A stretch of DNA of 28,002 bases from IMG/VR virus record IMGVR_UViG_3300020416_000588, positions 1 to 28,002 of that record; one strand, given 5' to 3'. This document shows, piece after piece, positions 11,548 through 28,002 of the stretch (the first letter of the stretch is position 1; each line of letters opens with the position of its first letter). Under the pieces are notes generated by a model. The model made no database searches. It was given only the letters and a program-made list of their open reading frames with translations, and was not told where the DNA came from. A program made the position numbers and the translations under genes. The DNA is from a virus.

Positions 11548-13008
11548 ATGCCAGCAATTATAACAAGTAAATTCAGAAGGAACAATGCACAAGCATTTCA
11601 AACTTCTTTCGGTGCTTCAGGTAATGTATATTATCTAGGAATCGGAAAACCTTCTGCGTTTGGTACTAAAACTAGACCAGACGGAAGAACAGAAAATTTA
11701 GGTACTGATAGTACCCCAATTACACCTGCCGATAGTGTACAACAAGAGTATGATACTTTTGATGATTTATTGGCTGTAAAAAGAATAAACAGCTCAGATG
11801 TAAGTTTCGCAGCTCCTAGAATTAACTGGACTAGTGGAACAACATATGACTATTACAGACACGATTATGGTAATAGAATTACAGGTGGTACCTCTATCCA
11901 ATCTGCTAATTCTGGCGCTACTAATCTATTTGACGCAAACTTCTATGTAATGAACAGCAACTTTCAAGTATACAAATGTTTAGATAATAATAACGATAGT
12001 CCTTCAACGGTAGAACCTACTGGTGAGAACGCAACACTTATCTTACAAACTTCAGATGATTACAAATGGAAGTATATGTTCACTCTATCTGCGTCTGCAC
12101 AAGCAAACTTTTTATCAACTGACTTTATGGGAGTTTCATCAAACTCAAATGTAACCAATGGTGCTGTTGATGGTGCTGTAAACATAGTAAAAATTAAAAC
12201 TGCTGGTACAGGTGGTACTGCTGGAACATACACAAACATTCCTATGAGAGGTGATGGTTCTGGTGGTGAAGTATCAATCACTATTACAAGTGGTTCGGTA
12301 ACTGCTGTATCGGTTACAAATAAAGGTTCAGGATATTCTTATGCAAATATTAGAGTATCAGATATTAATACTGCTGGTGGTGGTTCACTAACAGGTGCTG
12401 AATTAGATTGTATAATTGAACCAAAAGGTGGTCACGGTTTTGACCCATTTGAAGAATTAGGTGCTTTCTTTGTAATTCTTAATACTTCTTTTGAAGGTGC
12501 TGAAACTGCAAACTCTGGTGACTTTACAACTGCAAACGACTTTAGAAGAGTTGCATTAATTAGAGACCCGAAATCAAGTGGTTCTGCTGCTACGGTTACA
12601 ACATTAAGAGCAACAAGAGCAGTTAGATTTTCAGGTACACCTGGTTCATTCCAAGTAGACGAAAAGATTACACAAACAAATACAGGTGCTGTAGGTAAAG
12701 TAGTACAATTTGATAGTGCTAATAAAATTTTATTTTACACGCAAACGAGATATAGTGATGAAGGTGTTGACGCAAACGGAAACAGAATATTGTTTAGTGG
12801 CACAGATGTAATAACAGGTGCTACTTCTTCTGCAACAGGAACACCAACAGGAGTAACCGAAACAATAGGTAATGTTTCATTAATTAGTGGTCACTCACTA
12901 CCAGAGATAGACGAAGATAGTGGAGATGTAATGTACATTGAAAACAGAGCGCCTGTCGCAAGAAGTGCTGACCAGACTGAAAATGTTAAATTGATTATTG
13001 AATTTTAA
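11548..13008 (+). CDS. 8: Baseplate wedge subunit gp8
   Basis: The 486-residue protein is longer than T4 gp8 (334). The N-terminus, PAIITSKFRRNNAQAF, recalls the IVTSKFR start region of T4 gp8. A YKCLDNN...EPTG...DDYKWKYMF segment (about 148-180) matches the T4 YRCLD...EPGDGYVWEYLF segment, and the end, SGDVMYIENRAPVARSADQT followed by ENVKLIIEF, matches the T4 MENRPPI...DQTEEINILFTF end. The extra length is beta-rich insert, including two GETITG-like repeats near residues 369 and 417. gp8 dimers hold gp7 and gp10 in the wedge. AGAGGA precedes the ATG. Confidence 0.93.
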   Translation: MPAIITSKFRRNNAQAFQTSFGASGNVYYLGIGKPSAFGTKTRPDGRTENLGTDSTPITPADSVQQEYDTFDDLLAVKRINSSDVSFAAPRINWTSGTTYDYYRHDYGNRITGGTSIQSANSGATNLFDANFYVMNSNFQVYKCLDNNNDSPSTVEPTGENATLILQTSDDYKWKYMFTLSASAQANFLSTDFMGVSSNSNVTNGAVDGAVNIVKIKTAGTGGTAGTYTNIPMRGDGSGGEVSITITSGSVTAVSVTNKGSGYSYANIRVSDINTAGGGSLTGAELDCIIEPKGGHGFDPFEELGAFFVILNTSFEGAETANSGDFTTANDFRRVALIRDPKSSGSAATVTTLRATRAVRFSGTPGSFQVDEKITQTNTGAVGKVVQFDSANKILFYTQTRYSDEGVDANGNRILFSGTDVITGATSSATGTPTGVTETIGNVSLISGHSLPEIDEDSGDVMYIENRAPVARSADQTENVKLIIEF

Positions 13009-13019
13009 GAGGAAAATAA

Positions 13020-16000
13020 ATGCCAGCAAAAACTGACTTTAACCTCTCGCCTTACTTTGATGATTTTTCAGAAAGTAAGAAGTTTCATAGAATACTTTTT
13101 AGACCAGCATTTGCTGTTCAAGCGAGAGAATTAACACAATCACAATCTATTCTACAAAACCAAGTAGAGAAAATGGGTAACCATATATTTGAAGATGGTG
13201 CTCAAATGATACCTGGTGAGGTAACTTATGATTTGAGATACTACTCAATTAAGTTAACTTCTTTTGCCGGCACAACTAACTTATCAGATTTCATAGGATT
13301 AGAGTTAACAGGACAAACTTCACAGGTTGTCGCAAAAGTAATTAAAGTAGATGTCGCAACTTCAACTGACCCAAATACTTTATATGTTAAGTATACAAAG
13401 ACTGGTGTAGGTAACGCAACAACTGACTTTGTTGCTACTGAAACTTTAGCTGCAACACACCCAACTTTAGGAATTATAACTGCTGTTTGTGAAAACTCAT
13501 TTACAGGTTCGGCTGCAAGTATCGTTGCTGGTACATATTACATAAATGGTTTCGCTGTTAATGTTGCTGAACAATCAATCGTATTAGATAAGTACGAAAA
13601 CACACCTTCTTATAGAGTAGGTTTATTGGTTACTGAAAGTTTTGTAACCCCTAACCAAGACCCATCGCTAGTTGACAATGCGGCTGGTTCATCAAACGCA
13701 AATGCTCCTGGTGCTCATAGATTTAAAATAGATTTAACTTTAACTAAACTTGCTTTGACTTCAGTTGAAGATGATAACTTTATTGAATTATTAAGATTGA
13801 GTAAAGGTAATCTACAAAGTAGAGTTAGAACAACTGAATACGCAATATTAGAAGATACACTTGCTCGTAGAACCTTTGACGAAAGTGGTAACTATGCAAT
13901 CAGACAATTTGATTTAGATGTTAGAGAACATTTAATTAACGGAGATAATAGAGGTATCTTTACTGCTGCCGAAGGTGGTTTAGAAAGTAAACTTGCATTA
14001 GGACTATCTCCTGGTAAAGCATATGTTAGAGGTTATGAAGTAGATAAGATAGGAACAGAATTTGTTGCTGTTGATAAACCTAGAACATTTGGAACAGAAA
14101 ACGGTTTCAATACTTTATTTGATGTAGGTAACTTTGTCAATGTATCAAATGTTTACGGTTCGCCAGATGTAAACTTTGTAACCGGTAAAGTAGAAACATT
14201 TAAAAAAGTAGAATTAAGAATTGCAAGTCCTTCATATGTTCCAGGAAATATAAATGCAAATGTTCAAAACTGCATTTACGAAATAGGTAGAGCAAAAACA
14301 AAAGGTTTTGAATTTAACAATACAATCGGTATACCAATTACAAGTGCTGGTCACATAGCGCCTAGTGCTAGTCAGGTAATGAAACACTTTTTATTTGATG
14401 TTGAAATGTTTAGTCATATCGGTATTACAGACGCTGTATCATTTACGACAGGTGAGACAATTACAGGTTCAACTTCAGGTGCAACTGGTATCGTAGAAAG
14501 TATTTCATCATCAACATCTTCTTATGCAATCACTTCATCTACAGCTGCAAATCCTGTTGTTATCACAACTGCTGCTGATACAGATATAAAAGATGGTGAC
14601 GCAATTAAGATAACAGGTGTCGCAACTCAAACAGAATTAAATGATAATGTATTCTATGTAAAAGCAGATACTAGTGGTACTGCAAAAAGAGATTTCATAT
14701 TAGTAAATGCTGACGGAACAGAAGTTGATGGTTCTGCACACACAGGTGCTGGTTCTGGTGGTGCTTTATCTATGGGTAAAGTCGTAGTATCTTCTGTTAA
14801 CGGAGAGTTTCAAGCAGGAGAAACAATCACAGGTTCTAGTTCATCAAATACTGCAACTATTAAAGCAAATGTATTTGGTAATAAAGGATTTACTTCTCAC
14901 TCAATCAATGATACTAAAGAAATTACAATGGCAGGTTCACCTACTTATACTGCCCAAACAGATTTAACAAGTTCTTTCGGTGAAAATGTACAACTCTCTG
15001 GTAATATTTCAATATCAGGTGGTTCAGCATTAGTTGTCGGTTTCAATACTAAATTCAATGAAGAATTAAAAATTGGTGATAGTGTTGAATTTGCTGATAC
15101 AGGTGGTACAATTATCACTAAAACGGTTCTTCAAATACATACAAGTTCATCAATAACACTTGATAGTGCTATCGGTGCAACTGCTGTTTCAAACTCAATC
15201 ATAATCAGAAGAAGAGCAAAACTACAAGAGCCAAACAAAAATATTTCTATATTCAGTTTGCCTTATGATACAATTAAAACATTAAAGACAAATGCAAACT
15301 CTGGTATAAGTGATACTTCTTATACGGTTAGAAAAACTTTTGTTGGTACTCTATCTTCAACTGGAGACATTACAATTACTGCAAACACAGGTGAGACTTT
15401 TGTTGCACAATCAGAAAGAGATTACTCGGTAACTATTATGACAGCAGGTGGTGCTTCTAGTTCAGGTGCCGTTGGTAATAAATTATCAACGACAGGTAAT
15501 CAACACGAAGGTGACGCTTGTTTCACTCTAGGTGGTTCGCCAGTAGGTCGTTCACTAACTTTAGACTTTGGTGCTAATCATCAAGGACACGAAGTAAAGA
15601 TTATTGCAACTTTAACTAAATCTGCACAAAACGAAAAATCAAAAACATTACAATCTAACGAAACGGTTACTATTGCTACACAATCAGACGCCGAGAGTAA
15701 AGTTATTGGTTTAGGTAAAGCAGATGTATACCAATTAGTTTCAGTTAAGATGTCTGCTGATTTCAGTACAGCACCTACTTCTGGTGATACAGACATTACA
15801 GAAAGATTTAATTTAGATACAGGTCAAAGAGATAACTTCTATGACATAGGTAGACTTGTAAGAAAACAAGGTGAGTTAGCACCTACAGGACAATTACTAA
15901 TTACATTTAATTATTTCACACACGGTAATGGTGACTTCTTTAGTGTAGATAGTTATGTCTCAATCAATTACGAAGATATTCCAACTTATACTTCTGATAC

Positions 16001-19000
16001 TTCAGGAGATACTTTTGAGTTAAGAGATACTTTAGACTTTAGACCTAGAGTAGATGACGCAAGTACGATTAACGCTGGTCAACAAAACAGAAGTTATGAT
16101 GGTACTGGTGCTTCTGCTGTTGATGTTGTCAAGTTTGGTACAAATGTACTTACAGACCACGAATATTATCTAGGTAGAATAGACAAACTTTACATTACAA
16201 AAGAAGGTGAATTTAAAACACTACAAGGTGCGCCAGATACAAGACCACAAGAACCTGGTCAATTAGAAAATGCAATGCACTTATACACAATTAATTTTCC
16301 TGCATATGTTCTAAATCCTGAAGATGTAAATTTTGAAACGGTTGATAATAGAAGATATACAATGAGAGATATCGGAGAGATTAACAAAAAGATTGATAGA
16401 GTAGAATACTATACTCAATTATCATTATTAGAAACTGCTGCTCAAGCATTACAGATACAAGATAGTAATGGTTTTGACAGATTTAAAAACGGATTTATTG
16501 TAGATAACTTTGACGGTCACGGTATCGGTGAGGTTACAAATGGTTCTCATAGATGTTCTATTGATTATAGAAAGAAAATAATGAGACCTCTATTTAAACA
16601 AGACGCTGTTGAATTAGAAGAGATAGACGAAGATGGTACAACACTTCTTGCCGCTGATAGAACAGCTGCAAACTATCAAAGAACAGGTGAAGTATTAACT
16701 TTACCTTACACTAATGTTGATTTAATTAATCAACCTTTTGCTTCAAAAGCAATCAATGTAAACCCATTTGCTATATTCAGTTGGGTAGGTACAATAGAAT
16801 TAACTCCTTCAAGTGATGAGTGGAGAGAAACAGAAAGAGCACCAGATTTAGTTGTAAATTCTGATACAGGTGCTTGGGACCAATTATTAAGAGAAGGTAG
16901 AGTACCTAATCAAAATGAGATTGCACTAGGTACCGTATGGAATGATTGGCAAACAAACTGGACAGGTGCTCCGTTAACTTCAGCGGTTACTGCTACAGGT
17001 GGTAGATTTATGAGAGGTCGTGCAATTATGCAAAGAACGACTATTACTTCTATCAACCAAGTTAACCAAAGTAGAACAGGAATTACAACAACTGCCGTAC
17101 CTCAAACTATTAGAACAAGTATGGGAGATAGAGTAGTTGATACTGCCTTTGTTCCATTTATCAGAAGTAGAAATGTTGACTTTGTTGCAACAAGATTAAA
17201 ACCTAATACAAGAGTTTATCCATTCTTTGACAATGTTGATATTACTGCATACATAACGCCAAGTGGTGGTTCTCTTGGTGGTAATTTGGTTACAGACGCA
17301 AACGGTGCTGTATCTGGTACTTTTGCAATACCTGACCCGAAAGTAAATAGTAATCCTAGATGGAGAACAGGTGAGAGAACATTTAGATTAACTTCATCTT
17401 CAACTAACTCGCAAGACGCTGCCGCTGTTGAAACAGCTGCAAACGCTGAATATGTTGCAAGAGGATTATTAAACACGGTTAGAGATACAATCGTTTCAAC
17501 TAGAGAATTTAGAGGTGTACAAAACACGGTTACAGAAACAAGACAAACACTTGAAACTTCAACAAGAGCAGGTAGTAGAGTTGTGGGTTGGGCAGACCCA
17601 TTAGCACAAACTATAATGGTTGATGACGAAGGTGGTGTATTCTTAACTTCTATTGATTTGTACTTCTCAACAAAAGACGCAAACATACCTATAACGGTTC
17701 AATTAAGAAATACGGTTAATGGTTATCCTGGAAGTAAAATCTTACCTTTCGGTGAAGTATCATTAAACCCTAGTTCAGTAAATACAAGTTCAGACGCTTC
17801 AGTAAAAACTACATTTACTTTTCCTGCGCCTGTGTACATACAAGATAAAACAGAATATTGTTTTGTAATTCTATCAAACTCAAACGAATACAATTGTTAT
17901 GTAGGTAGATTAGGAGAAACAAACATAGGTTCTAATAGAACAATATCACAACAACCATATGCTGGTGTTATGTTTAAATCTCAAAACGGTTCTACTTGGA
18001 CAACTGAACAAAACGAAGATATTAAATTTACAATTAAGAGAGCTGAGTTTGAAGCGGTTACTGGTACCGTTCATTTAGCAAACAAAGAATTACCAGCAAG
18101 AACATTAAAACAAAACCCATTGAGAACAACTAACAACTCTAAAGTAATTAGAGTATTCCATCCTAATCACAATTTACACGATACAAATTCTGTGGTTACG
18201 ATTGCAGGAGTTCCTAATGGTACTCATAATGGTCTTGCACATACAGATATTAATGGAACATATACGCAAATTTCAAATATTACACTAGATAGTTTTGATA
18301 TTACTTCACCTAGTTCAACTAATGCAAACACGACTGGTGATATAGGAGGTACTGCAATTACTTCAACTCAAAACAGACAAATAGATGTATTGAACATTGC
18401 AGGTATTCAAACTCTTGCTGTTCCTGGTTGTAATATAAATGCGTTTGTAAGAACGACAACAAGTAAGTCAGTTCACGGAACGCAAACACCATATTCATTA
18501 ACAACTAATTCAAATAAAATACCTGTATCATTACAAGATGATATTTACTTTACAGCGCCACAGGCAGTTATGTCTCAACCTAATGAAACAACTCGTATGA
18601 ATGGTCAAAAGTCTTTCTTTACGATATTTGAATTATCAAGTACAAATACAAAACTATCTCCTGTTATTGACTTAGCAAGAAATAGTGTATTCTGTATCGC
18701 AAACAGATTGAATAGTCCTGATAGTGGTAACACACCAGACTTTGTTGCTGATACAGCACCTGCTGATAACTCAACTGCTTCAAACTATATTACTAAACCT
18801 GTTGTATTGACAAACAACTCAACAGCGTTAGATATTAGATTGACACAGGTAGTTAGAAGTTCAAGTGAAGTAGAAGTTTATTTTAGAACAACAAGCGCTG
18901 ACGAAGTTAGAGATATACACGAATTAGATTTTGTGCCGTTCAATACAGATGGTAGACCTGACGCAACGGTACCTGCTTCTGAAACAGACGAAGACTTTAG

Positions 19001-19130
19001 AGAATACAAATATAGTGTTGCAGGATTAAATGCTTTTTCTGCATTTCAAATTAAGATTGTGTTGAAAGGAACAAACTCTTCTTATCCACCAATCTTACGA
19101 GATATGAGAGGTATTGCATTGGCGATATAG
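13020..19130 (+). CDS. Very large virion structural protein, DUF4815-like
   Basis: This 2036-residue protein has a DUF4815-type N-terminus: NLSPYFDDFSESKKFHRILF followed by RPAFAVQARELTQSQSILQN, a pattern typical of large baseplate/tail proteins of marine T4-like phages. Two GETITGS-type beta repeats lie at about 478 and 599. The central part is rich in Ser/Thr/Gly beta repeats, and a more globular part (about 1150-1500) contains helical segments such as the run ending in KIDRVEYYTQLSLLETAAQA. The last 500 residues resemble lectin-like or fibre beta-sandwich domains (inference). AGAGGA sits before the ATG, 11 nt after gp8. Likely role: peripheral baseplate or fibre scaffold, perhaps taking the place of part of T4 gp10-gp12. 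Exact role not shown. Confidence 0.8.
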   Translation: MPAKTDFNLSPYFDDFSESKKFHRILFRPAFAVQARELTQSQSILQNQVEKMGNHIFEDGAQMIPGEVTYDLRYYSIKLTSFAGTTNLSDFIGLELTGQTSQVVAKVIKVDVATSTDPNTLYVKYTKTGVGNATTDFVATETLAATHPTLGIITAVCENSFTGSAASIVAGTYYINGFAVNVAEQSIVLDKYENTPSYRVGLLVTESFVTPNQDPSLVDNAAGSSNANAPGAHRFKIDLTLTKLALTSVEDDNFIELLRLSKGNLQSRVRTTEYAILEDTLARRTFDESGNYAIRQFDLDVREHLINGDNRGIFTAAEGGLESKLALGLSPGKAYVRGYEVDKIGTEFVAVDKPRTFGTENGFNTLFDVGNFVNVSNVYGSPDVNFVTGKVETFKKVELRIASPSYVPGNINANVQNCIYEIGRAKTKGFEFNNTIGIPITSAGHIAPSASQVMKHFLFDVEMFSHIGITDAVSFTTGETITGSTSGATGIVESISSSTSSYAITSSTAANPVVITTAADTDIKDGDAIKITGVATQTELNDNVFYVKADTSGTAKRDFILVNADGTEVDGSAHTGAGSGGALSMGKVVVSSVNGEFQAGETITGSSSSNTATIKANVFGNKGFTSHSINDTKEITMAGSPTYTAQTDLTSSFGENVQLSGNISISGGSALVVGFNTKFNEELKIGDSVEFADTGGTIITKTVLQIHTSSSITLDSAIGATAVSNSIIIRRRAKLQEPNKNISIFSLPYDTIKTLKTNANSGISDTSYTVRKTFVGTLSSTGDITITANTGETFVAQSERDYSVTIMTAGGASSSGAVGNKLSTTGNQHEGDACFTLGGSPVGRSLTLDFGANHQGHEVKIIATLTKSAQNEKSKTLQSNETVTIATQSDAESKVIGLGKADVYQLVSVKMSADFSTAPTSGDTDITERFNLDTGQRDNFYDIGRLVRKQGELAPTGQLLITFNYFTHGNGDFFSVDSYVSINYEDIPTYTSDTSGDTFELRDTLDFRPRVDDASTINAGQQNRSYDGTGASAVDVVKFGTNVLTDHEYYLGRIDKLYITKEGEFKTLQGAPDTRPQEPGQLENAMHLYTINFPAYVLNPEDVNFETVDNRRYTMRDIGEINKKIDRVEYYTQLSLLETAAQALQIQDSNGFDRFKNGFIVDNFDGHGIGEVTNGSHRCSIDYRKKIMRPLFKQDAVELEEIDEDGTTLLAADRTAANYQRTGEVLTLPYTNVDLINQPFASKAINVNPFAIFSWVGTIELTPSSDEWRETERAPDLVVNSDTGAWDQLLREGRVPNQNEIALGTVWNDWQTNWTGAPLTSAVTATGGRFMRGRAIMQRTTITSINQVNQSRTGITTTAVPQTIRTSMGDRVVDTAFVPFIRSRNVDFVATRLKPNTRVYPFFDNVDITAYITPSGGSLGGNLVTDANGAVSGTFAIPDPKVNSNPRWRTGERTFRLTSSSTNSQDAAAVETAANAEYVARGLLNTVRDTIVSTREFRGVQNTVTETRQTLETSTRAGSRVVGWADPLAQTIMVDDEGGVFLTSIDLYFSTKDANIPITVQLRNTVNGYPGSKILPFGEVSLNPSSVNTSSDASVKTTFTFPAPVYIQDKTEYCFVILSNSNEYNCYVGRLGETNIGSNRTISQQPYAGVMFKSQNGSTWTTEQNEDIKFTIKRAEFEAVTGTVHLANKELPARTLKQNPLRTTNNSKVIRVFHPNHNLHDTNSVVTIAGVPNGTHNGLAHTDINGTYTQISNITLDSFDITSPSSTNANTTGDIGGTAITSTQNRQIDVLNIAGIQTLAVPGCNINAFVRTTTSKSVHGTQTPYSLTTNSNKIPVSLQDDIYFTAPQAVMSQPNETTRMNGQKSFFTIFELSSTNTKLSPVIDLARNSVFCIANRLNSPDSGNTPDFVADTAPADNSTASNYITKPVVLTNNSTALDIRLTQVVRSSSEVEVYFRTTSADEVRDIHELDFVPFNTDGRPDATVPASETDEDFREYKYSVAGLNAFSAFQIKIVLKGTNSSYPPILRDMRGIALAI

Positions 19131-19134: not shown

Positions 19135-19368
19135 ATGAGTAGATTTATTAAAGTACAACATAATGATTTTTTAGTTAGAGATAACAGAAGTGGTGCTATC
19201 GTTAACAATAATCAAACTGAATATCAAATGTATATGCAAAGAGTAAAGAATAGAGAAAACTCAACTAACGCAATGAAGGATATGTGTAGAGAGATAAATA
19301 ATTTAAAGGCAGAATTGTTTGAGATAAAAGATATATTAAAAACATTATGCGATAAAGGAAACAAATAA
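19135..19368 (+). CDS. Small coiled-coil protein between tail genes, unknown
   Basis: The chosen start (MSRFIKVQHNDFLVRDNRSG) lies five bases after the stop of the giant gene, avoiding an in-frame ATG at 19114 inside that gene. The 77-residue product has a polar N-terminal half and a helical, heptad-like C-terminal half (MKDMCREINNLKAELFEIKD onward), suggesting a trimeric or dimeric coiled coil. Its stop overlaps the next ATG by one base. It may be a fibre-assembly or minor virion protein; no family is recognised. Confidence 0.7.
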   Translation: MSRFIKVQHNDFLVRDNRSGAIVNNNQTEYQMYMQRVKNRENSTNAMKDMCREINNLKAELFEIKDILKTLCDKGNK

Positions 19369-20666
19369 TGGCAGTAAGACAAGTATCAGAAACAGATAGT
19401 TTAGATAAGTTAAGAGTAGAATTTAATGCTCTTGCGGCTAATGACTTTGGTGATATTGCAAACTTATCACCAACTTTATCTGCAACTACCGTTATCGGTG
19501 CTGTAAACGAAATTAACTCAATCGCAATTGCGGCTGCTGGTTTCATATTATCAGATGGCTCAAACACACAGGCGGTTGCTTCTGGTAACACAATGTTAGT
19601 TTCAACAGGTACTGGTTTAACTGCAACGGTATCAGCACCAGATACATTAAACATTTCTTTAAATACAAACTTATCTGGTATATCTACAATAGATGTAGGT
19701 CAATCTGCCGAGATATCAAACATAACGATTTCAAGTGGTTCAATTATTTCTGCAAGTGGAACAATTGACTTTGGTAATGAACAATTAAATACAACAGGTG
19801 GTATTACTTCAGGTGGTACACTAGTCGGTGCAGGATTAACTATTAATGGTTCTTCAATGTTATTTGAAGGTTCTACTGCTGACGACAATGAAACTAGATT
19901 ACAAGTTTCTAATCCTACTGCTGATAGAGTAATTACAATACCTGATATTACAGGTTCATTAATCACAACTGGAGATACAGGTACGGTAACTTCTACAATG
20001 TTAGCAAACAATGCCGTAGGTACTTCACAAATTGCAAATAGTTCAGTAACCATAGATAAATTAAATGTTGCTTCATCAACTTTAACGGTTGATACTTTAG
20101 TTGCAAACACTATCACAGGTACTGCTGATGTTGCTAATCAAGTTGCTTTAACTTCTGATAACTCATCTAACGCAACGAAGTATATAACTTTTTCAGATAG
20201 TCCTACAGGTAATCAAGGACTAAAAACAGATACAGGTTTATTTTATAACCCTGCTTCAAATGTATTAACTACAACTGCTACACAAGCACAATACGCTGAC
20301 TTGGCAGAAAAATATAGTTCAGATAAAGAGTACGAAGAAGGTACTATTATGTGTATAGGCGGACACGCTGAAACAACTCAATGTGTTGAAGACCATTGTC
20401 AAAAAGTTGCAGGTGTCGTATCAGATATGCCTGCTTATTTAATGAACCATAATTTAGAAGGTACAAGTGTTAATATTGCATTAACAGGAAGAGTGCCAGT
20501 AAGAGTATGTGGTCCAGTTAGAAAAGGTGACTTAATTGTAAGTTGCGCTAAACCAGGTTGTGGTAGAAGAGAAGCAGAACCTAGAGTAGGTGCTTTAGTC
20601 GGTAAAGTTCTTATCAATGATGATAGAGAAGAGGAAAGACTTGTTGAGTGCTTAGTTGGTAGATAG
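19368..20666 (+). CDS. Tail-fibre-like protein with Cys-rich C-terminal domain
   Basis: The 432-residue protein opens with SETDSLDKLRVEFNALAAND, a common fibre N-terminus, followed by repetitive Ser/Thr/Asn/Gly beta sequence to about residue 310. The last 120 residues form a domain of the type ADLAEKY...GTIM...KVAGVVSDMPAYLMN...ALTGRVPVRV-x-GPVRKGDLIVS...ALVGKVL, seen at the ends of many marine phage fibre proteins. It resembles domains placed near peptidase G2/chaperone ends, but no autoproteolysis site can be named. Unusually, all seven cysteines of the protein lie here (329, 339, 344, 381, 393, 398, 428), with His333 and His343 close by. AAAGGA precedes the ATG. Confidence 0.8.
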   Translation: MAVRQVSETDSLDKLRVEFNALAANDFGDIANLSPTLSATTVIGAVNEINSIAIAAAGFILSDGSNTQAVASGNTMLVSTGTGLTATVSAPDTLNISLNTNLSGISTIDVGQSAEISNITISSGSIISASGTIDFGNEQLNTTGGITSGGTLVGAGLTINGSSMLFEGSTADDNETRLQVSNPTADRVITIPDITGSLITTGDTGTVTSTMLANNAVGTSQIANSSVTIDKLNVASSTLTVDTLVANTITGTADVANQVALTSDNSSNATKYITFSDSPTGNQGLKTDTGLFYNPASNVLTTTATQAQYADLAEKYSSDKEYEEGTIMCIGGHAETTQCVEDHCQKVAGVVSDMPAYLMNHNLEGTSVNIALTGRVPVRVCGPVRKGDLIVSCAKPGCGRREAEPRVGALVGKVLINDDREEERLVECLVGR

Positions 20667-20677: not shown

Positions 20678-21160
20678 ATGGCAGATGAACAAACGCAATT
20701 ATGGGTTTCCCGATTGAAAGAGGAAATTCAATCCCACGATAGATATAACGCAAGACAGATTTTCTACATTGACGAAGAAGGTAGAGATAGAGAGGTCAAA
20801 GAACATATGACCTATGGTGAATGGTTGAGAGAGTATGAGAGATTTAAAACCATTAAGGTGGAAGGTTTAGAAGAAACTAAATGGATAACGGAGTGTGTTG
20901 ACGAAGTTGTACATAATATTACTGGAAAGAAAAGAAGTAATATACATTTATTTGTAAATCAAAAACCAGGTGTTAGTTTTAAATCACATAAAGACGACCT
21001 AGATGTTTACTTGTATGTTGTTAAAGGCAAGAAGAAAGTAAATGTTGAAGGAGAGAATAAGATAGCATACGCTGATGAAGGTGTGTATATCAAGGAAGGT
21101 CAATATCATTATGTAGATAACGAAGCAGATACTTGGGGGTTAAGTATCGGAGTTGTCTAA
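20678..21160 (+). CDS. JmjC/cupin-like Fe(II) oxygenase
   Basis: The 160-residue protein has an N-terminal helical part and a C-terminal cupin. GVSFKSHKDDLDVYLYVVKG followed by KKKV gives His104-x-Asp106 and the DVYLYVVKGKKKV strand. DEGVYIKEGQYHYVDNEADT followed by WGLSIGV gives the second-side His144. This order closely resembles the cupin-4/JmjC ribosomal-oxygenase fold (YcfD type: HxD, DVFL-GRRRW, PPRWxHxG, SIGF). Such enzymes hydroxylate proteins with 2-oxoglutarate and Fe(II). It is much shorter than YcfD (373 residues). Its stop shares one base with the start of the radical SAM gene, so the two are likely made together. A plain sugar-type cupin is the alternative. Confidence 0.68.
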   Translation: MADEQTQLWVSRLKEEIQSHDRYNARQIFYIDEEGRDREVKEHMTYGEWLREYERFKTIKVEGLEETKWITECVDEVVHNITGKKRSNIHLFVNQKPGVSFKSHKDDLDVYLYVVKGKKKVNVEGENKIAYADEGVYIKEGQYHYVDNEADTWGLSIGVV

Positions 21161-22194
21161 TGAATTGGATGTTTTATCTTAAAACAACCGAAACCTGCAA
21201 TCTAAATTGTAAACATTGTTTCACTTCAGGTAAGAACGGTCCTAAAGTATATTGGGATACAAATAAAATCATAAATTGGTTTCACAATTTCAGAAAATTC
21301 AATTATCATAAACACGATATCGCACATTTAGAGTTTCACGGCGGCGAACCTTTTTTAGTTCCTGTATCTGAAATGCAATATGTGTACGATAGAACAAAAG
21401 GTCTATGGGAACATCAATCTTATGGGGTTACTTCTAATCTCGTATTCAAATTAAAACAAGAACATATAGATTTTATGAAAGGTCCACTAGGAAATAGATG
21501 TGGAACTAGTTGGGATCCTAATATTCGTTTCGCAAATGAGAAACAATCTAACTTATGGCGTAAAAATGTTGAAACTTTATTGTCTGAAGGCATAACAATC
21601 AAACTTTTTATATCAGTAACCAAAGATACGGTCAATATTGAACCCATACAACTACTACAATGGGTAAAAGACTTGGGTGTTTCTGAAATGGCACTAGAAA
21701 GATTGACTGGAAACGGCAATGCTAACTTACATCCTGAAATTTTCCCAACAAATATTGAACAAGACAAGTGGTTTTTGAAAATGCACGAACAATCAGAGCA
21801 ATATAATGCAAGAGATTGGTTTGAAAATGAATTTTTAGAAACTATTTACTCAAAATTTAAGTCAGGTAACACAAAACAAGGTACTTTCTGCCGTGATTGC
21901 GAACAAAAACTATTTACACTCAACGCAACAGGCACAATAGGCGGTTGTCCTAACGCAAGTCCCGAGTTTAACTTCGGTTCTCTGGATGACCCTATGATAG
22001 ACCTTATAAATAATCCAAAGAGATTGAATAATATTGCTTGCGAAGTAGCAAGAAACCCAAAATGTTGGGAATGTGATGTATTTAAATATTGTGGTGGCGA
22101 TTGTCACCAACTAGGATGGCAAGGCGATGTATGTGGTGCCCCTAAATCTCTAATGAAACAACTGGCACAAAAGAAAAGTGAGGCGATATGGTAA
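21160..22194 (+). CDS. Radical SAM/SPASM domain protein (peptide-modifying type)
   Basis: The 344-residue product has TETCNLNCKHCF with Cys13, Cys17 and Cys20 (CxxxCxxC), which binds the SAM-cleaving [4Fe-4S] cluster, then HGGEP at about 60-65. The C-terminal SPASM part has Cys302, 305, 311, 315 and 325 (C-x2-C-x5-C-x3-C-x9-C) and upstream cysteines in FCRDC and GGCPN, enough for two auxiliary clusters. SPASM enzymes mature ribosomal peptides and proteins (thioether or C-C bonds) or activate enzymes. The start is placed at the ATG overlapping the cupin stop (GGAG upstream), not at a TTG farther up. The 7-nt overlap with the next gene, which ends in CHxS repeats, makes that protein the likely substrate. 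Confidence 0.9.
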   Translation: MNWMFYLKTTETCNLNCKHCFTSGKNGPKVYWDTNKIINWFHNFRKFNYHKHDIAHLEFHGGEPFLVPVSEMQYVYDRTKGLWEHQSYGVTSNLVFKLKQEHIDFMKGPLGNRCGTSWDPNIRFANEKQSNLWRKNVETLLSEGITIKLFISVTKDTVNIEPIQLLQWVKDLGVSEMALERLTGNGNANLHPEIFPTNIEQDKWFLKMHEQSEQYNARDWFENEFLETIYSKFKSGNTKQGTFCRDCEQKLFTLNATGTIGGCPNASPEFNFGSLDDPMIDLINNPKRLNNIACEVARNPKCWECDVFKYCGGDCHQLGWQGDVCGAPKSLMKQLAQKKSEAIW

Positions 22195-22961
22195 ATTTAA
22201 CGAATCCGATTACTGCTCAAAACATTGTAGATAGATTTAAAGAAGTGGTAACAGATGTGGCTGATAAAGATATTGTTTGGGGTACAGATAACTTACCTGG
22301 ACATAGTGCTTTTTCTGCGTCTGACTTCGGAGGAGTAGTTGATGGTATGCAATTGAACCTAGTAAATGCAACAGGTAATTTTAGTGTTAACGAAACGGTT
22401 ACAGGTTCTATTTCAGGAACCGTAGGTACCGTTGTTAGTTATTCAAACAATGTATTAAAAGTAAGAAATGTAGTACCAGGTTCAGGACAAACTAACTTTG
22501 TTCAAAACGATATATTAACAGGTAGTAATTCAGGTGCGACTGGTTCAGTATCTACAATGACAGAAGTATCAGCGGTTACTATTTCTATTAATGGTAATAA
22601 TCTAGGTAGTTCAGCACAATTAATTCAAGCGAATACAATTTATAGTGTTTTAAAAGCTGAAATGAACAACTATACTAATATTAAGAGTACTAATGCGTTT
22701 GTATCAATGACAGGTGCAGGTACTCAATATAATCAAACAGAAATCGCACACTTAACAACTAGTCAAAGAGTAACCTTAAACCCATCACAACCTAGTAATT
22801 TACAAGCAGGTCAAGTAATTGACGATAGTAATTTAGAAAACTTTTTAAGTTCTCTTGCAAGTGCTTATGGTGTTGAAAGAGGAAATACTTACACACTATC
22901 AAAAACAATTTGTCATAGTTCGTGCCACGGTTCGTGCCACGGATCCAGAGGAAGAAGATAA
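22188..22961 (+). CDS. Virion-like protein with C-terminal CHxS-repeat tail, candidate radical SAM substrate
   Basis: The 257-residue protein starts MVNLTNPITAQNIVDRF. It contains two beta repeats of the kind found in the gp7-like, gp8 and DUF4815-like proteins (NETVTGSISGTVGTV at about 67 and NDILTGSNSGATGSV at about 107). After a Ser/Thr/Asn-rich middle it ends CHSSCHGSCHGSRGRR (242-257). The only cysteines are Cys242, 246 and 250, one per four-residue repeat, each followed by His and, two residues later, Ser. GTGAGG precedes the ATG, which overlaps the SPASM gene. It is probably a virion component whose tail is modified. The tail could instead be an unmodified metal-binding tag. Confidence 0.72.
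   Translation: MVNLTNPITAQNIVDRFKEVVTDVADKDIVWGTDNLPGHSAFSASDFGGVVDGMQLNLVNATGNFSVNETVTGSISGTVGTVVSYSNNVLKVRNVVPGSGQTNFVQNDILTGSNSGATGSVSTMTEVSAVTISINGNNLGSSAQLIQANTIYSVLKAEMNNYTNIKSTNAFVSMTGAGTQYNQTEIAHLTTSQRVTLNPSQPSNLQAGQVIDDSNLENFLSSLASAYGVERGNTYTLSKTICHSSCHGSCHGSRGRR
22920..22943 (+). repeat. Tandem 12-nt repeat coding for S-C-H-G
   Basis: TCGTGCCACGGT followed by TCGTGCCACGGA, 11 of 12 bases identical. The codons TCG, TGC and CAC are rare choices here (neighbouring genes mostly use TCA/TCT, TGT and CAT), so the stretch is GC-rich against its surroundings. The immediately preceding copy (TGT CAT AGT) uses ordinary codons. Confidence 0.85.
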
Positions 22962-23653
22962 TGATTGAAACTATTGTACCTATTGAATTGAAAGATTTAA
23001 AAAAATACTTTGAAGATAAAACACAAAGTTATATGATTGATTACGAAAAGAGTACATTAAAAGGTGCTCAGTTCTTAACATATTTAAGTAATTTAGATAT
23101 ACCTTGCGACCTATCTAATTATGATGATGAATTACTAAAAGAATATTTTGAGAGTTCTATGTTAGTAAACATACCATTACTAGAAAAGGCTGCTATGATT
23201 GTTCTATTTGAACATAAAGGTCTAGTAAAAGAAATTAAGAACGCAAAATTTATATCAGAAAATTTAGAGACTATTGATAAGTGGGCAAGTAAATTAGAAA
23301 GTTTACCACTATACAATATGTCTATCGTAGGAGAAGGTGCATTTAAAGAATATGTTGACCTATATCCTAAAGACGAAACAGAAGATACTAAAGGTATCAA
23401 CTTTGTTAGTCTATTAAAACACAAAGATTTTTATTTCTACTATAATAAACCAGAAGAAAAAATTGTTAAAAACTATACTAAATACTTTAAAGAATATATG
23501 TTTAAAGGCAAATGTCTATTAGACTTTTGGGGTGTTAAAGAAAACCCTATGTTTCTAATGACTTGGGCGATTGCCGAAGGTAAATTTGATAGTAAGAAAT
23601 ACAAAGAAGCAAGAACAAAAGATTTAGAGGTACTAAATGCTACACCTGTTTAA
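22961..23653 (+). CDS. Unknown protein downstream of the CHxS gene
   Basis: The 230-residue protein starts MIETIVPIELKDLKKYFEDK at the ATG overlapping the previous TAA. The longer frame from a GTG at 22922 would read through the CHxS-coding region in another frame and is not supported. It is mostly helical, Lys/Glu-rich, with no signal peptide or metal motif and scattered aromatic residues (KHKDFYFYYNKPEEK). No family recognised. Tight spacing within the modification block suggests a partner, such as a substrate-recognition or assembly protein, but this is inference only. Confidence 0.7.
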   Translation: MIETIVPIELKDLKKYFEDKTQSYMIDYEKSTLKGAQFLTYLSNLDIPCDLSNYDDELLKEYFESSMLVNIPLLEKAAMIVLFEHKGLVKEIKNAKFISENLETIDKWASKLESLPLYNMSIVGEGAFKEYVDLYPKDETEDTKGINFVSLLKHKDFYFYYNKPEEKIVKNYTKYFKEYMFKGKCLLDFWGVKENPMFLMTWAIAEGKFDSKKYKEARTKDLEVLNATPV

Positions 23654-24749
23654 TAAAGTTTATATGACTTTTGACGATAGTATTGATTGTCATACTAACA
23701 GATATGTTATATCTGCTGATAAAGGCAATGCAATGCACCAAGAGCTACAAACAACTTATCGTGGTACATTAATTAATCATACTCATAGCGTTAACGAAAT
23801 GAAAACGAAGTTTAATGGTATGATAGGTTTCTTTAATGATGTAAGATTAAAAAGTAATTCTCTAGGTAAGATTATTATATATTGTGATAGTCAGGCATTT
23901 TTAGAGTTGGTAACTATATGGTTAAAGACTATGTTGCCTTTCGCTGACGAAGACGCAATACAAAAATATGTAGATATCTATTTACACCACGAAAAGATTA
24001 TTGCAAATACACAATTGCAACCTACACATACTTTAGATTTGACACAATTAAATTCTGGTCTAGGAGATGTTAAAGGTTACTTTAGAGTACAAGGTGCTTT
24101 AGATTTAGATACTATCAAAGAGTGGGATTTAAATTTATCAATAGAATTATTATTAGGCGAATACTTTGCAGGTGCCGATACACACGAAGATAAATTATTA
24201 GACACATATTTAAAATTCTTAAAAAGATTTTACAAAGAAGTATTTACAGACGCTAGAGAGGGTGCAGCTCTCAATCTGTTAAATACTAATCAACAAGAAG
24301 CATTAGGTTATACTGCTGATGATGTCAACTTAAATGCTGATAATGTCTTTGAAGGCATTACACCTTTAGCACCTTTCGCTGATAGTGAAGTATTTGTAGA
24401 GAAACCTACTGCAAACAATGGTGCTGTCAACATAATGAATATTGATAATTTGTCAAGTGAAAAACAAACTGCACTAAAAGAATTAGTCAAAGACCTATAC
24501 GACTTTCAAAATTCACCTAGTCCTGATTACTTTATGAACCATTTAGACAAGGCAGTTAAGTCAACTCTTTCTAAATCAGATTTTGACACAATCATAACCG
24601 AGACGGTGAATAGTCCATCTAGTCTATCGTACATACCGAGATTTGATATAGGTAATATTAACTATTCTTTTTTACAATATCTATTCTCATTAAAAAAATC
24701 AGACGATACAGACACTTTAGGAAAGTATAGACTATTCGCAAACTCGTAG
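23637..24749 (+). CDS. Unknown 370-residue protein in the modification block
   Basis: The ATG at 23637 has AGAGGT well placed upstream and overlaps the previous gene by 17 nt; a second ATG at 23664 is possible. The protein begins MLHLFNKVYMTFDDSIDCHT. An N-terminal alpha/beta part contains GKIIIYCDSQAFLELVTIWL, a strand-then-helix pattern, and the rest is helical and acidic, ending GKYRLFANS. No catalytic motif is recognised. The protein just upstream is also unrecognised, and the pair lies between two SPASM genes. Whether they belong to the modification pathway or are virion parts cannot be told from the sequence. Confidence 0.7.
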   Translation: MLHLFNKVYMTFDDSIDCHTNRYVISADKGNAMHQELQTTYRGTLINHTHSVNEMKTKFNGMIGFFNDVRLKSNSLGKIIIYCDSQAFLELVTIWLKTMLPFADEDAIQKYVDIYLHHEKIIANTQLQPTHTLDLTQLNSGLGDVKGYFRVQGALDLDTIKEWDLNLSIELLLGEYFAGADTHEDKLLDTYLKFLKRFYKEVFTDAREGAALNLLNTNQQEALGYTADDVNLNADNVFEGITPLAPFADSEVFVEKPTANNGAVNIMNIDNLSSEKQTALKELVKDLYDFQNSPSPDYFMNHLDKAVKSTLSKSDFDTIITETVNSPSSLSYIPRFDIGNINYSFLQYLFSLKKSDDTDTLGKYRLFANS

Positions 24750-24757
24750 GAGTTTAA

Positions 24758-25810
24758 ATGCGAGAGTTTTTATTAGACCCAAAAAGAGACCCAGAGCAAG
24801 AGTACACTATTCATTTATTTGAATTTTGTAATTTGCGTTGTGCTTTCTGTTGGCAAAACCACGAAGACACTATCGGTACTGAAAATGTATTAGATAAACT
24901 TCCGTCAGTAGAGAAGTTTATATCAAAAGAGTTAATGCAAAAAGTTACCTTTAATGTTATGGGTGGCGAAGTCTTTGCACCTGCAATCTACACAAAGAAA
25001 TTAAATGAAGGTTATAAACTTTTTGTAAAAGGTATACAAAAGATATGTGACCATTACAATAAGAAATGTGTAATTAATTGGGTATCTAATTTAGTAACCA
25101 CACCTCAAGGTAATGAACAGATACTAGATTTAATAACTTGGTCTAGGCAAGAAGGTATTGAAACTAGATTAACAACTAGTTATGACCCACGAGGTAGATT
25201 TAATAAAAAAGATTTTGAGATATTTAAATCAAATGTAGAATATTGGGGTGATGAAGTAACCTGTTTTTCTTGTCTACTTACAAAACCTAATATCACATAT
25301 TATTTAGAACAAGGCGATGAATACTTTGACTATCTCTATAAGAGTGGTAAGTATATCTACTTTGATTATTATATGCCAGATGAACACGCAAAATACAATA
25401 TGCCTAGCGATGAATTACTATTAAAATTTTTCAAACATTGTATAGACAAATATCCTAATGTACATCCTGTTAGAGATTGGATTTTCAATAAGAAAAACTT
25501 TGCAAGTTGTAGAGTATCAAAACTTATATTAGCAGATGGTACTTTATGTCAATGTGGTAATCTAGTACAAGATGAAAAATCATTAAGTCAATATAAGTCG
25601 CCAATAAAAAGAAAAGATAATAGTAGAATAGAAAATAGTTTTTTAGAAAAATATAATTGTGCTAGTTGTGAATTTTTAGATAGATGTACACTAGGTTGTT
25701 TTATGAACCACGATTACAGATATAAGGAGGAACTCAATGAGTGTGTATACAAACTTACGCACAGATATATTGAAGATGTACGAGTACAACGAAATCTTGT
25801 TGCAACCTAA
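24758..25810 (+). CDS. Radical SAM/SPASM domain protein (second copy)
   Basis: This 350-residue enzyme has FEFCNLRCAFCW with Cys24, Cys28 and Cys31 (CxxxCxxC) and a MGGE motif at about 68-71. The C-terminal SPASM domain shows Cys301, 304, 310, 314 and 329 (C-x2-C-x5-C-x3-C-x14-C) plus earlier cysteines in ASCRVSKL and LCQCGN for the other auxiliary cluster. It differs widely in sequence from the enzyme at 21160, so it is not a recent duplicate and probably has its own substrate or reaction. AGGAG overlaps the stop of the preceding gene. The next gene starts 74 nt before this one ends. Confidence 0.9.
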   Translation: MREFLLDPKRDPEQEYTIHLFEFCNLRCAFCWQNHEDTIGTENVLDKLPSVEKFISKELMQKVTFNVMGGEVFAPAIYTKKLNEGYKLFVKGIQKICDHYNKKCVINWVSNLVTTPQGNEQILDLITWSRQEGIETRLTTSYDPRGRFNKKDFEIFKSNVEYWGDEVTCFSCLLTKPNITYYLEQGDEYFDYLYKSGKYIYFDYYMPDEHAKYNMPSDELLLKFFKHCIDKYPNVHPVRDWIFNKKNFASCRVSKLILADGTLCQCGNLVQDEKSLSQYKSPIKRKDNSRIENSFLEKYNCASCEFLDRCTLGCFMNHDYRYKEELNECVYKLTHRYIEDVRVQRNLVAT

Positions 25811-26357
25811 TAATCTCAATTTACCAGAGAATATAGAAGTACAACTAGATAGATTTCCTGTACAGAAACCTTATATGCCTAGATTGTGTGAAAGACAAGC
25901 ACACTTTCTTTTGTGGTTAGGTACGAAAGAAGAAGACATAGAATTATATAATGTTGCACAACAAACAATAGGCGAGAAACAATGGGTACAACCTAAAACG
26001 CCTAATACATTTATTAAAGGTGTAGGTATGTTTCATATTTACAAAGACCATATCATATGTGGGTCTATGAAGTATGCAGGATATATGAAAAGAAAAGACG
26101 CAACATATAGAAGAAGATTATTAAGAACAATGTGGTGTGAAACAATAAACTTATTTAAAGATAAAGATATTATATGTCCTAGTGGAACATATTTTGATTA
26201 TGTACATCTAACAATGAACCAGATGTCTGCACAAAAAGAACCATATCACTATCAAATTATGACACAATTTGGTTTTAAGAAAGATGATAGTGGTGATTAC
26301 TGGATTAGAAACAAAGAAAGTCAAACAGGATTAAACTGGATAGGATTATGGACCTAA
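25737..26357 (+). CDS. Unknown protein between two SPASM genes (possibly acetyltransferase-like)
   Basis: A strong AAGGAGG lies seven bases before the ATG at 25737, which fixes the start inside the preceding gene. The 206-residue product runs MSVYTNLRTDILKMYEYNEI to NWIGLWT. Its middle, GMFHIYKDHIICGSMKYAGY, and the helix MKRKDATYRRRLLRTMWCET followed by INLF resemble a GNAT acetyltransferase layout, and YHYQIMTQFGFKKDDSGDYW would fit the last GNAT strands, but no firm acetyl-CoA loop can be seen. It overlaps the third SPASM gene by 10 nt, so production of all three is probably linked. Confidence 0.65.
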   Translation: MSVYTNLRTDILKMYEYNEILLQPNNLNLPENIEVQLDRFPVQKPYMPRLCERQAHFLLWLGTKEEDIELYNVAQQTIGEKQWVQPKTPNTFIKGVGMFHIYKDHIICGSMKYAGYMKRKDATYRRRLLRTMWCETINLFKDKDIICPSGTYFDYVHLTMNQMSAQKEPYHYQIMTQFGFKKDDSGDYWIRNKESQTGLNWIGLWT

Positions 26358-27454
26358 TAATAAAACCTACTGAATTGTGTAATTTCAAATGTACTTTTTG
26401 TTCAAGTACACAATTGACTAATGAAAAGAAAAACTGGTTAAAACACGACCAGATATTTCGTTTTTTAGAAAGGTTTCCTGAAACAAAAACTATTATCGTA
26501 AATGGTGGTGACCCATTGATGATGGCACCTGATTACTACTGGAAGATTATTGAATGGTTAGATAATAAAGGTTACGATACTTCACTTGCACTTACAACAA
26601 ACTTATGGCCTTTCTATAAGAAACCAGGTCGTTGGGTTGACTTATTTAATAATGATAGAGTAGGTATCACAACTTCTTTTCAATATGGTGGTGGTAGATT
26701 GAAAGGTGACTTTACAGAATTTACAGAAGAAGACTTTTGGAAGTGTTCAGACGCAATGTTAGAATATTGTGGTTATAGACCTGACTTTATATCAGTTATT
26801 ACAGAAGAAAATGTACACAACGCAATCAAAAATGTTAGACTTGCAAAACAGATGTCAAACAATAATGAACCTGAAGGCACTTTACATAACTTCTGGCGTT
26901 ATGAGAAAACAGGTGTTGAGTGTAAACTAAACTATGCAATGGCAAGTGGTGAACAGAAAAATCCATTTTTATTATCAGACATATATAAGATATATGTTGA
27001 TATCTGGCGTATGGGACTTTCACCTTGGGAGTTCAATACAAAACAAATGATGACAACAATTAAGACTGAACATACGAGTTGTCCGTTAAGTAGAAAGTGT
27101 GATGAGGGTATAAGATGTTTACAACCAGATGGCGACTATTATAGTTGTGGTGCTTTCGGTGATGATAAAGATAAAGAGATAGATTTTGAAAGAGAAATGC
27201 AAGGTGAGTTTTTTACACCTTTGCAAGATGATTTAAAATTAACAACTATGAAAAAGAGTTGTTATGGTTGTCCTATGTTTAGTATTTGTAATGGGTGTAG
27301 AAAAACAATAAAAGATTACAAAGAAAAAGGAGTTGTAGAGGCACATTGTCAAAAGATGAAAAGAAATGGTGAAGATATATTAAATGCAAATGGTTTGCAT
27401 TATATCAAAATGACGCCTTATGAAAATGAGATAAAAAATGTTAATCAAGCGTAA
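26348..27454 (+). CDS. Radical SAM/SPASM domain protein (third copy)
   Basis: The 368-residue enzyme starts MDLIIKPTELCNFKCTFC with Cys11, Cys15 and Cys18 (CxxxCxxC), and NGGDP near 52-56 in place of GGE. C-terminally, CPLSRKCDEGIRC and SCGAFG carry auxiliary-cluster cysteines, and a SPASM motif follows with Cys305, 308, 314, 317 and 334 (C-x2-C-x5-C-x2-C-x16-C). The spacing differs by one residue from the other two enzymes. The TTNL and FQYGGGR segments fit the radical SAM barrel. It overlaps the gene before by 10 nt and the 2OG oxygenase after by 17 nt. Substrate unknown; no short precursor peptide gene is seen next to it. Confidence 0.9.
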   Translation: MDLIIKPTELCNFKCTFCSSTQLTNEKKNWLKHDQIFRFLERFPETKTIIVNGGDPLMMAPDYYWKIIEWLDNKGYDTSLALTTNLWPFYKKPGRWVDLFNNDRVGITTSFQYGGGRLKGDFTEFTEEDFWKCSDAMLEYCGYRPDFISVITEENVHNAIKNVRLAKQMSNNNEPEGTLHNFWRYEKTGVECKLNYAMASGEQKNPFLLSDIYKIYVDIWRMGLSPWEFNTKQMMTTIKTEHTSCPLSRKCDEGIRCLQPDGDYYSCGAFGDDKDKEIDFEREMQGEFFTPLQDDLKLTTMKKSCYGCPMFSICNGCRKTIKDYKEKGVVEAHCQKMKRNGEDILNANGLHYIKMTPYENEIKNVNQA

Positions 27455-27884
27455 TGTCTTAACTATGACAGAAGGTAATACTTTATTAAACGCAATTAAT
27501 AAGTTAGACCTGCCGTTATATGAAAAGAATATACACACGAAGTTAGATGATAATTTTGAATGGACAGATACAATATGTCGTTTAAATTATCCTGATTTAG
27601 GTCCTTTGATTGTCAGATATATTATCTCTACAAACACTAAAGACGAGAATAAGAATATAATAGGTTATCATACAGATAGCGATAAGAATAATGAGATTAC
27701 TGCAATACTATATTTAAAAGGTGATAGTACAAAAGGTGGAGAATTACAGATAGAAGGTAAGAAGAAACATAGATTTGAGAAGAACGCATTGTTTATAATG
27801 CCATCACATTTAAGGCATAGAGCAAATCCTTATTATGGTGATGAGACTAGACTTGCAATTAAGTGGAGGTTTGTTAGAAGATGA
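27438..27884 (+). CDS. 2OG-Fe(II) oxygenase (prolyl hydroxylase-like fold)
   Basis: The 148-residue protein contains the minimal double-stranded beta-helix. IGYHTDSD gives His78-x-Asp80, EITAILYLKG and GGELQIEG are the next strands, and FIMPSHLRHRANPYYGDETR followed by LAIKW gives the distal His127 (or His124) and the 2-oxoglutarate-binding Arg138. All expected ligands are present, so an active Fe(II) dioxygenase is likely. Such enzymes hydroxylate protein side chains or nucleic acid. The start at 27438 overlaps the SPASM gene by 17 nt and has a weak ribosome-binding site; Met10 is a possible later start. Its position after three SPASM genes points to protein modification. Confidence 0.85.
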   Translation: MLIKRNVLTMTEGNTLLNAINKLDLPLYEKNIHTKLDDNFEWTDTICRLNYPDLGPLIVRYIISTNTKDENKNIIGYHTDSDKNNEITAILYLKGDSTKGGELQIEGKKKHRFEKNALFIMPSHLRHRANPYYGDETRLAIKWRFVRR

Positions 27885-28002
27885 TACAAGGTATAGAAAA
27901 TGTATTAATTAATGGTGTATATCCTTTTAAGGATCCTGTTGCATTTAGATTTTTTGAAGGTGTTGAGATACCTTTTAAACAACAAGGAGAATATAAAGTT
28001 TG
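27881..28002 (+). CDS. Unknown protein, N-terminal 40 residues only (truncated by window end)
   Basis: ATG at 27881 overlaps the oxygenase TGA (ATGA), and the frame is open to the end of the window. The visible part starts MIQGIENVLINGVYPFKDPV and has no clear motif. GTGGAGG lies about 12 bases before the ATG. It is probably co-translated with the oxygenase. No family can be named from this fragment. Confidence 0.6.
   Translation, partial: MIQGIENVLINGVYPFKDPVAFRFFEGVEIPFKQQGEYKV

Follow-up and report, generated by a model that had tools for sequence, protein, structure and literature searches.

The 28,002-nucleotide (nt) stretch of viral DNA analysed here (hereafter the window; IMG/VR record IMGVR_UViG_3300020416_000588) is a fragment of a T4-like phage, and the record stops where the window ends. 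Between positions 20678 and 27884 it carries nine open reading frames (ORFs), all on one strand, which encode, in this order, a cupin/JmjC-like oxygenase, the radical S-adenosylmethionine (SAM) enzyme A, a protein ending in repeated Cys-His-x-Ser motifs (the CHxS protein), the proteins U4 and U5, radical SAM enzyme B, U7, radical SAM enzyme C and a 2-oxoglutarate (2OG) oxygenase (Table 1). An initial annotation, made from the letters of the window, had listed these genes in the same order. All nine ORFs were confirmed, and the order was found again in dozens of related contigs, with U7 and the last 2OG gene in a subset only; the cluster is thus beyond chance. The CHxS protein, which that annotation listed but not as a substrate, is in our view the specific candidate substrate of this cassette, with its C-terminal tail as the proposed site of modification.

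In the window, the CHxS protein ends in ICHSSCHGSCHGSRGRR. Across its relatives the tail follows the near-invariant consensus CHxSCHxSCHxSR[G/S/N]RR; the bodies evolve fast, with a mean column identity of 14% in a set of 30, and form seven groups unconnected by blastp once the tail is removed. An exact DNA pattern for part of the tail was found in 77 viral contigs, in almost all of which a protein ends precisely with the motif; a chance origin of the tail was rejected on these grounds. With all searches combined, CHxxCHxxCHxxRxRR forms the C-terminal end of 171 distinct proteins. The codons of the tail are free to vary, as seen from 119 different 48-base sequences across 135 proteins, which indicates that selection acts on the peptide; recent copying of the tail was rejected on the same numbers. 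Searching phages with the whole CHxS protein (tblastn) gave no match, because the body evolves too fast, and relatives can be reached by the tail motif or by enzyme A only. Although little sequence is shared besides the C-terminus, there are structural matches among these relatives. As a folded domain, the body spans roughly 110–300 amino acids (aa), and the AlphaFold2 (AF2) model of the window protein has a mean predicted local distance difference test (pLDDT) score of 90, with the tail as a low-confidence flexible end.

Every tail from contigs selected by enzyme A has three Cys and three His in its chain. A variant tail, CHSSCHSSHSSRNRR (locus L422, 3645-4298; also L423), has lost the third Cys and kept the three His-x-Ser motifs. 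Some phages encode two CHxS proteins, which are either alike and in tandem or have dissimilar bodies (L017). Tandem pairs of short CHxS proteins (about 125 aa) were seen in L015, L016, L022, L028, L048, L051, L052, L070, L072 and L076. In four loci (L104, L105, L106 and L108; 7043-7969) a Gly-rich adhesin-like protein is encoded between enzyme A and the CHxS gene; it starts like CHxS proteins and has no CHxS tail.

To avoid circularity, the linkage between tail and enzymes was assessed with enzyme A alone as the query. This search returned at least 370 relatives among viral contigs, a sign of how widespread the module is, and the best 80 were used. Wherever the downstream region was intact, the tail was encoded as well (75/75 loci), by the next gene in 69 cases and by the one after it in 6. 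Distinct enzyme A proteins whose loci reach far enough downstream number 117; the tail follows within 3 kb in 112 of them and lies elsewhere in the locus in 2 others. Other queries led to the tail in 74/74 (U4), 65/68 (enzyme B) and 52/55 (enzyme C) loci, and all 74 U4 loci also carry enzyme A, the cassette enzyme with the tightest linkage to the CHxS protein. The exceptions are mostly accounted for by genes lying apart on the contig, by the variant tail of L422 and L423, and by one paralogue in a different setting (L426). L346-L348 represent a type in which CHxS genes stand apart from enzyme A, and L346 shares a contig with L028, which has the pair. At tandem short-CHxS loci (e.g. L016, L346) enzyme A was seen several kb off, not adjacent.

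In the reverse direction, 22 records with the tail mostly had no enzyme A in the nearby stretch; 17 of the 22 have enzyme A in the record, and the remaining ones are fragments or partial bins. As an independent check, relatives were collected by the 2036-aa tail protein encoded upstream of the cassette; of the 37 whose sequence extends 6 kb or more downstream, 6 had both enzyme A and the tail, 31 had neither, and none was mixed. Fisher's test gives p = 4e-7 for this co-occurrence, a value that ignores phylogeny and is only a guide, since linkage counts are not independent evolutionary events. Independent scattering of the enzymes, by which the modification proposal of the initial annotation could have been refuted, was not observed: enzymes A, B and C and U4 co-occur with each other and with the tail motif.

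All three radical SAM enzymes match phrog_1802 strongly and have an invariant CX3CX2C cluster-binding motif (alignments of 22, 19 and 14 relatives for A, B and C, respectively). The initial annotation had called all three SPASM enzymes. In the TIGR04085 model (A 28.9, B 21.4, C 22.6 bits; curated cut-off 27) only enzyme A, in which the SPASM cysteines are invariant among the 22 relatives, scores above the cut-off; B and C score under it but retain conserved C-terminal cysteines. With PF04055, enzyme C scores above the cut-off of 29.5 (31.0) and A and B below it (20.9 and 20.6). The three enzymes are of different families and not recent duplicates, in agreement with the earlier impression that they are not simple copies; C is the most conserved (mean column identity 66%). 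The product of the first gene contains an HxD...H facial triad (H104, D106, H144, plus K119) that is invariant in 28/28 relatives, which makes a JmjC-like Fe(II)/2OG oxygenase plausible on sequence grounds. The last ORF matches 2OG-FeII_Oxy_3. U5 gave no family match in profile searches, and for U4 and U5 fold or sequence searches revealed no convincing relative (fold matches were weak), which does not indicate a new fold.

Table 1. Features of the cassette and its surroundings in the window.
Feature	Position	Strand	Basis
CHxS protein, proposed substrate	22188..22961	+	AF2 model; relatives share C-terminus
Inserted beta domain of CHxS protein (aa 52-129)	22341..22574	+	Structure searches
C-terminal tail CHSSCHGSCHGSRGRR, proposed modified core	22911..22958	+	Shared C-terminus of relatives
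Cupin/JmjC-like Fe(II)/2OG oxygenase (plausible)	20678..21160	+	Cupin_2, E 3.5e-7
Radical SAM/SPASM enzyme A	21160..22194	+	phrog_1802, E 6e-63; SPASM above cut-off
U4, conserved partner (phrog_20767)	22961..23653	+	E 5e-57
U5, conserved protein	23637..24749	+	Conserved place in cassette
Radical SAM enzyme B (SPASM-like)	24758..25810	+	phrog_1802, E 3e-43
U7, in a subset of cassettes only	25737..26357	+	Recurrence in related contigs
Radical SAM enzyme C (SPASM-like)	26348..27454	+	phrog_1802, E 7e-54
2OG-Fe(II) oxygenase	27438..27884	+	2OG-FeII_Oxy_3, E 1.1e-6
Further cassette gene (start only), truncated at window end	27881..28002	+	Apparent homologue in L060 2OG-oxygenase-like
Tail fibre-like protein, directly 5' of cassette	19368..20666	+	phrog_19602 tail fibre, E 5e-6
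T4-like baseplate block	4708..19130	+	Pfam and PHROGs matches
Members of the block: PAAR, gp25, gp6, wedge, gp9/10-like, gp8, 2036-aa protein	4708, 5014, 5441, 7298, 9894, 11548, 13020	+	

The nearly universal overlap of starts and stops noted at the outset is found at all joins within the cassette except one, where 8 nt precede enzyme B; a gap of 10 nt also lies 5' of the cupin. These values refer to homologue-supported starts: homologues favour ATG at 21160 for enzyme A and at 22961 for U4, and not the TTG/GTG starts originally listed for these two genes. The cluster extends beyond the window end; in relatives, further 2OG oxygenases and a fourth radical SAM enzyme follow. Upstream, the last member of the baseplate block (13020-19130) is probably the counterpart of VrlC. 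The fibre-like protein that follows goes with the cassette in its full-length form, and relatives without the cassette share mainly its N-terminal part. Elsewhere in the window the phage encodes an IscA/HesB-like iron-sulphur (Fe-S) carrier (1654-1977) and a NifU-like protein (3059-3331), a pair that could provide the radical SAM enzymes with clusters. Between the two, outside the cassette, lies another 2OG-Fe(II) oxygenase (PF13759, phrog_81; 2277-3059). As Fe-S carriers occur in 8 and 3 of 23 cassette records, the idea that they belong to every cassette was rejected.

The module is present across T4-like and phiKZ-like jumbo phages. Among annotated phages, enzymes A and C match the same seven records: Agrobacterium phage Atu_ph07 (two), Sinorhizobium phage Phosso, the Burkholderia phages FLC6, FLC8 and SURPRISE13, and Pseudomonas phage DT01. 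In five of these genomes the gene after enzyme A was seen to end in CHTSCHASCHSSRSRR (Phosso), CHSSCHASCHNSRSRR (Atu_ph07), CHSSCHTSCHGSRGRR (SURPRISE13 and FLC6) or CHTSCHTSCHSARGRR (DT01). In DT01 (L083, 8983-18811), six annotated radical SAM genes and 2OG oxygenases form one run around the CHxS gene. The cassettes of Burkholderia jumbo phages contain two adjacent dihydrofolate reductase-family genes (L080, 15421-16598; L082, 15319-16532), which might contribute a reductive step to the maturation of the tail. A looser tail pattern matched 41 stretches in bacterial genomes. The 13 of them that look real are probably phage contigs in metagenome bins, and the others, often in GC-rich DNA, are taken as chance matches. 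Several real CHxS matches on genome contigs (L177, L192, L195, L201 and L204) were binned with Bdellovibrionota-type bacteria and are perhaps phages of predatory bacteria.

Three lines suggest that the CHxS protein is located on the virion: its position, its structure and a proteomics cluster of Atu_ph07. In cassette-less relatives the same slot is occupied by fibre or adhesin genes, or by other variable genes. For pelagimyophages, the published description treats the region after VrlC as a host-recognition cluster and notes radical SAM cassettes as additions (PMC7029224). As to structure, the insert of the CHxS protein (aa 52-129) had its best matches among 1000 re-aligned PDB chains in baseplate proteins of phages KP1 (Z 7.6) and T4 (Z 7.2), both below the caution level of Z 8. 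Matches in BFVD included neck, fibre and structural proteins and a 296-aa protein of Atu_ph07, the same length as the Atu_ph07 CHxS protein. The modelled insert seems similar to a domain that occurs in virion proteins, those of the baseplate among them. In Atu_ph07, virion proteins detected by mass spectrometry come mostly from coding sequences (CDS) 31-76, 170-215 and 284-329 (PMC6102473). According to the annotation, CDS 170 is the CHxS gene and CDS 215 the major capsid gene, so that the virion cluster 170-215 starts at the CHxS gene; the numbering of paper and record agrees at gp181 (baseplate) and gp198 (head/portal). CDS 165 (enzyme C), 168 (enzyme B) and 169 (U4) fall outside this cluster. 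Enzyme A (171) and the cupin (172) lie within its numerical range, and the boundary is therefore uninformative on them. Papers on the phages FLC6, S13 and RP31 provided no virion protein list that could be used for the CHxS gene.

We consider it likely that the genes form a maturation cassette acting on the CHxS tail, and that the tail stays on its body as a stabilised tip borne by the virion. According to this proposal, the phage-encoded cassette would act post-translationally on the tail CHxSCHxSCHxSRxRR of a protein from the host-recognition region. Enzyme A, aided by B and C, would crosslink the motif repeats, and hydroxylation of the tail or a neighbour may be the task of the cupin and the 2OG enzymes. 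As no peptidase or exporter was recognised in the cassette, the tail would probably remain on the body and be carried by the virion as a chemically stabilised tip, which probably would serve adsorption or penetration. C-terminal tips of fibres and adhesins are commonly the receptor-contact part of phages. The conserved cassette, the tail at the exact C-terminus, the near-complete linkage of tail and enzymes and the position in the fibre slot are evident from sequence; that the tail is the enzyme substrate, that the protein sits on the virion and that the tail functions as a tip is what we infer. The initial annotation had left the choice between tail proteins of the phage itself and a host target as what is modified, with more than one substrate as a possibility. 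Modification of an own tail-region protein is strongly supported genetically; a host target and several substrates find no support in our data. We give roughly even chances to a broader view, in which a mobile module common to several deep phage lineages builds a RiPP-like (ribosomally synthesised and post-translationally modified peptide), radical-crosslinked tip on a virion protein of the host-recognition region, with one tail on very different bodies.

As to the chemistry, the second residue after each His (i+2) in 70 distinct tails is Ser (170), Asn (26), Ala (8), Gln (3), Arg (2) or Lys (1), every one of which has an unbranched beta carbon; Gly, Thr or Val occur there in 0/210 cases, compared with 57/210 at i+1. 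Triceptide enzymes link an aromatic or His carbon to the C-beta two residues on (i+2), where Ser, Asn, Ala and Arg are among the residues used; bonds from His to the C-beta of Ala or Arg are known (PMC11002830). Since i+2 is never Gly or beta-branched, His-x-Ser C-beta crosslinks are the chemistry that we favour, and the variant tail without the third Cys, which keeps its His-x-Ser motifs, fits it. Three-residue cyclophanes between His(i) and C-beta(i+2), as in triceptides, are nevertheless a tentative assignment, possible rather than probable. The invariant cysteines may be candidates for thioethers, disulfides or metal binding.

Several points weigh against a modified, virion-borne tail as proposed here. 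Tail modification is a prediction from the genes, and the presence of gp170 itself in Atu_ph07 particles one from a cluster boundary. Conservation of the cysteines exceeds what His-Cbeta crosslinks alone explain, and scores against known NCBIfam families fail to discriminate the chemistry. Other substrates may exist for enzymes B and C, for U4 and U5 and for the oxygenases. Beyond the non-independence of the linkage counts, remote relatives of enzyme A without the tail could exist, because only the 80 closest relatives were kept per search.

A C-terminal repeat motif beside SPASM enzymes is the usual layout of RiPPs (PMC9062424), which raises the question whether the modified tail is cleaved off and then acts, as a small free bioactive peptide, against the host or against competing bacteria. 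We regard this as improbable: no peptidase or exporter is among the families detected in the scanned cassette proteins (although the unassigned U4, U5 and U7 or a host peptidase may fill the role), a folded body of this size with a virion-type insert is unlike a short leader, and the virion cluster of Atu_ph07 begins at the CHxS gene. The Cys and His residues kept in all enzyme A-selected tails, together with the virion-type domain of the body, would also suit an oligomeric fibre tip in which the repeats hold metal and the radical enzymes act elsewhere; the tip of T4 gp37, with its iron-binding HxH motifs, offers a comparison. Such a tip leaves unexplained why a dedicated radical SAM enzyme is encoded beside the tail in essentially every contig and why Gly and beta-branched residues are absent at i+2, and we hold it to be unlikely; if a modified tail bound metal, the two ideas could be reconciled.

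Enzymes of the radical SAM and 2OG types act on a wide range of targets, and with several of them per cassette the substrate could be a protein, tRNA, lipid or sugar of the host, the CHxS protein being a carrier or recognition factor. That an invariant repeat is encoded next to the enzyme, that the set is located in the fibre region behind baseplate genes and, as a weak indication, that the NCBIfam families nearest enzyme A are mostly peptide maturases render this very unlikely. There is also a precedent for assigning the radical SAM genes to a general Fe-S or metabolic programme: such a programme has been suggested for a marine T4-like genome that encodes an A-type carrier and has 12 radical SAM genes (PMC5332604), and the window encodes IscA-like and NifU-like proteins. 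This explanation is weakened by the sporadic occurrence of the Fe-S carriers in cassette records, in which the CHxS tail is nearly always present, and strikes us as extremely improbable.

What our analysis adds to the initial annotation is a named candidate substrate, the breadth across phages and a testable chemistry. So far, radical SAM genes of marine phages have been interpreted as auxiliary metabolism or have gone without explanation; with a fixed substrate motif next to the enzymes, they acquire a role that can be tested and a link to host recognition. In the literature searched, which lay mostly outside subscription papers and bioRxiv preprints, neither the tail motif nor such a system is named, and we found no example of a virion protein modified by a radical SAM enzyme and no earlier description of phages remodelling the tip of an own particle protein. 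If the tail matures as proposed, particles of already cultured phages should contain an unusual covalent structure. If true, radical chemistry would be part of the infection machinery, RiPP-type chemistry would be extended from small secreted peptides to virus structure, and new peptide-crosslinking enzymes would become available.

Among known systems, the accessible parts of the reports on pelagimyophage host-recognition radical SAM cassettes and on T4-like marine Fe-S sets name no substrate, tail motif or maturation role. Ranthipeptides (PapB, CteB/SCIFF) likewise have Cys-rich substrates, and PapB gives the best weak NCBIfam score of enzyme A. This score is far below the cut-off (39.1 vs 340 bits), however, the phage body is unrelated, and a thioether acceptor is not indicated. 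The PDB matches of enzyme A include 5wgg, which we take to be CteB. The His-Xaa-Ser system (HxsA/HxsB/HxsC/HxsD) shares the repeated His-x-Ser motif and the use of more than one radical SAM enzyme; enzymes A and C, on the other hand, score 30.4 bits against HxsB (cut-off 370) and 30.5 bits against HxsC (cut-off 267.9), and the CHxS protein matched no NCBIfam model, HxsA-type ones included, up to E 1.

In triceptides (XncB, OscB/GrrM, MscB, HaaB, YhhB), too, a SPASM enzyme is encoded beside a substrate with repeated aromatic/His-x-X3 motifs, and the allowed X3 residues overlap with those of the phage tails (Ser, Asn, Ala, Arg; PMC11002830). CHxS tails conform to the triceptide-type motif, with His at i and an unbranched C-beta at i+2. 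Unlike triceptide precursors, the phage substrate is a full-size folded protein in the fibre region with an extra invariant Cys per motif, and the cassette adds oxygenases and two further radical SAM enzymes. There is no family-level enzyme match: against families of three-residue cyclophane-forming enzymes (3-CyFEs), the scores are 21.1 bits for GrrM/OscB (cut-off 310), 29.0 for YhhB (445) and 24.9 for AmcB (425). With its enzymes below the cut-offs for Hxs, GrrM/OscB, YhhB, AmcB and PapB, we file the phage system as RiPP/triceptide-like rather than as a member of any of these families.

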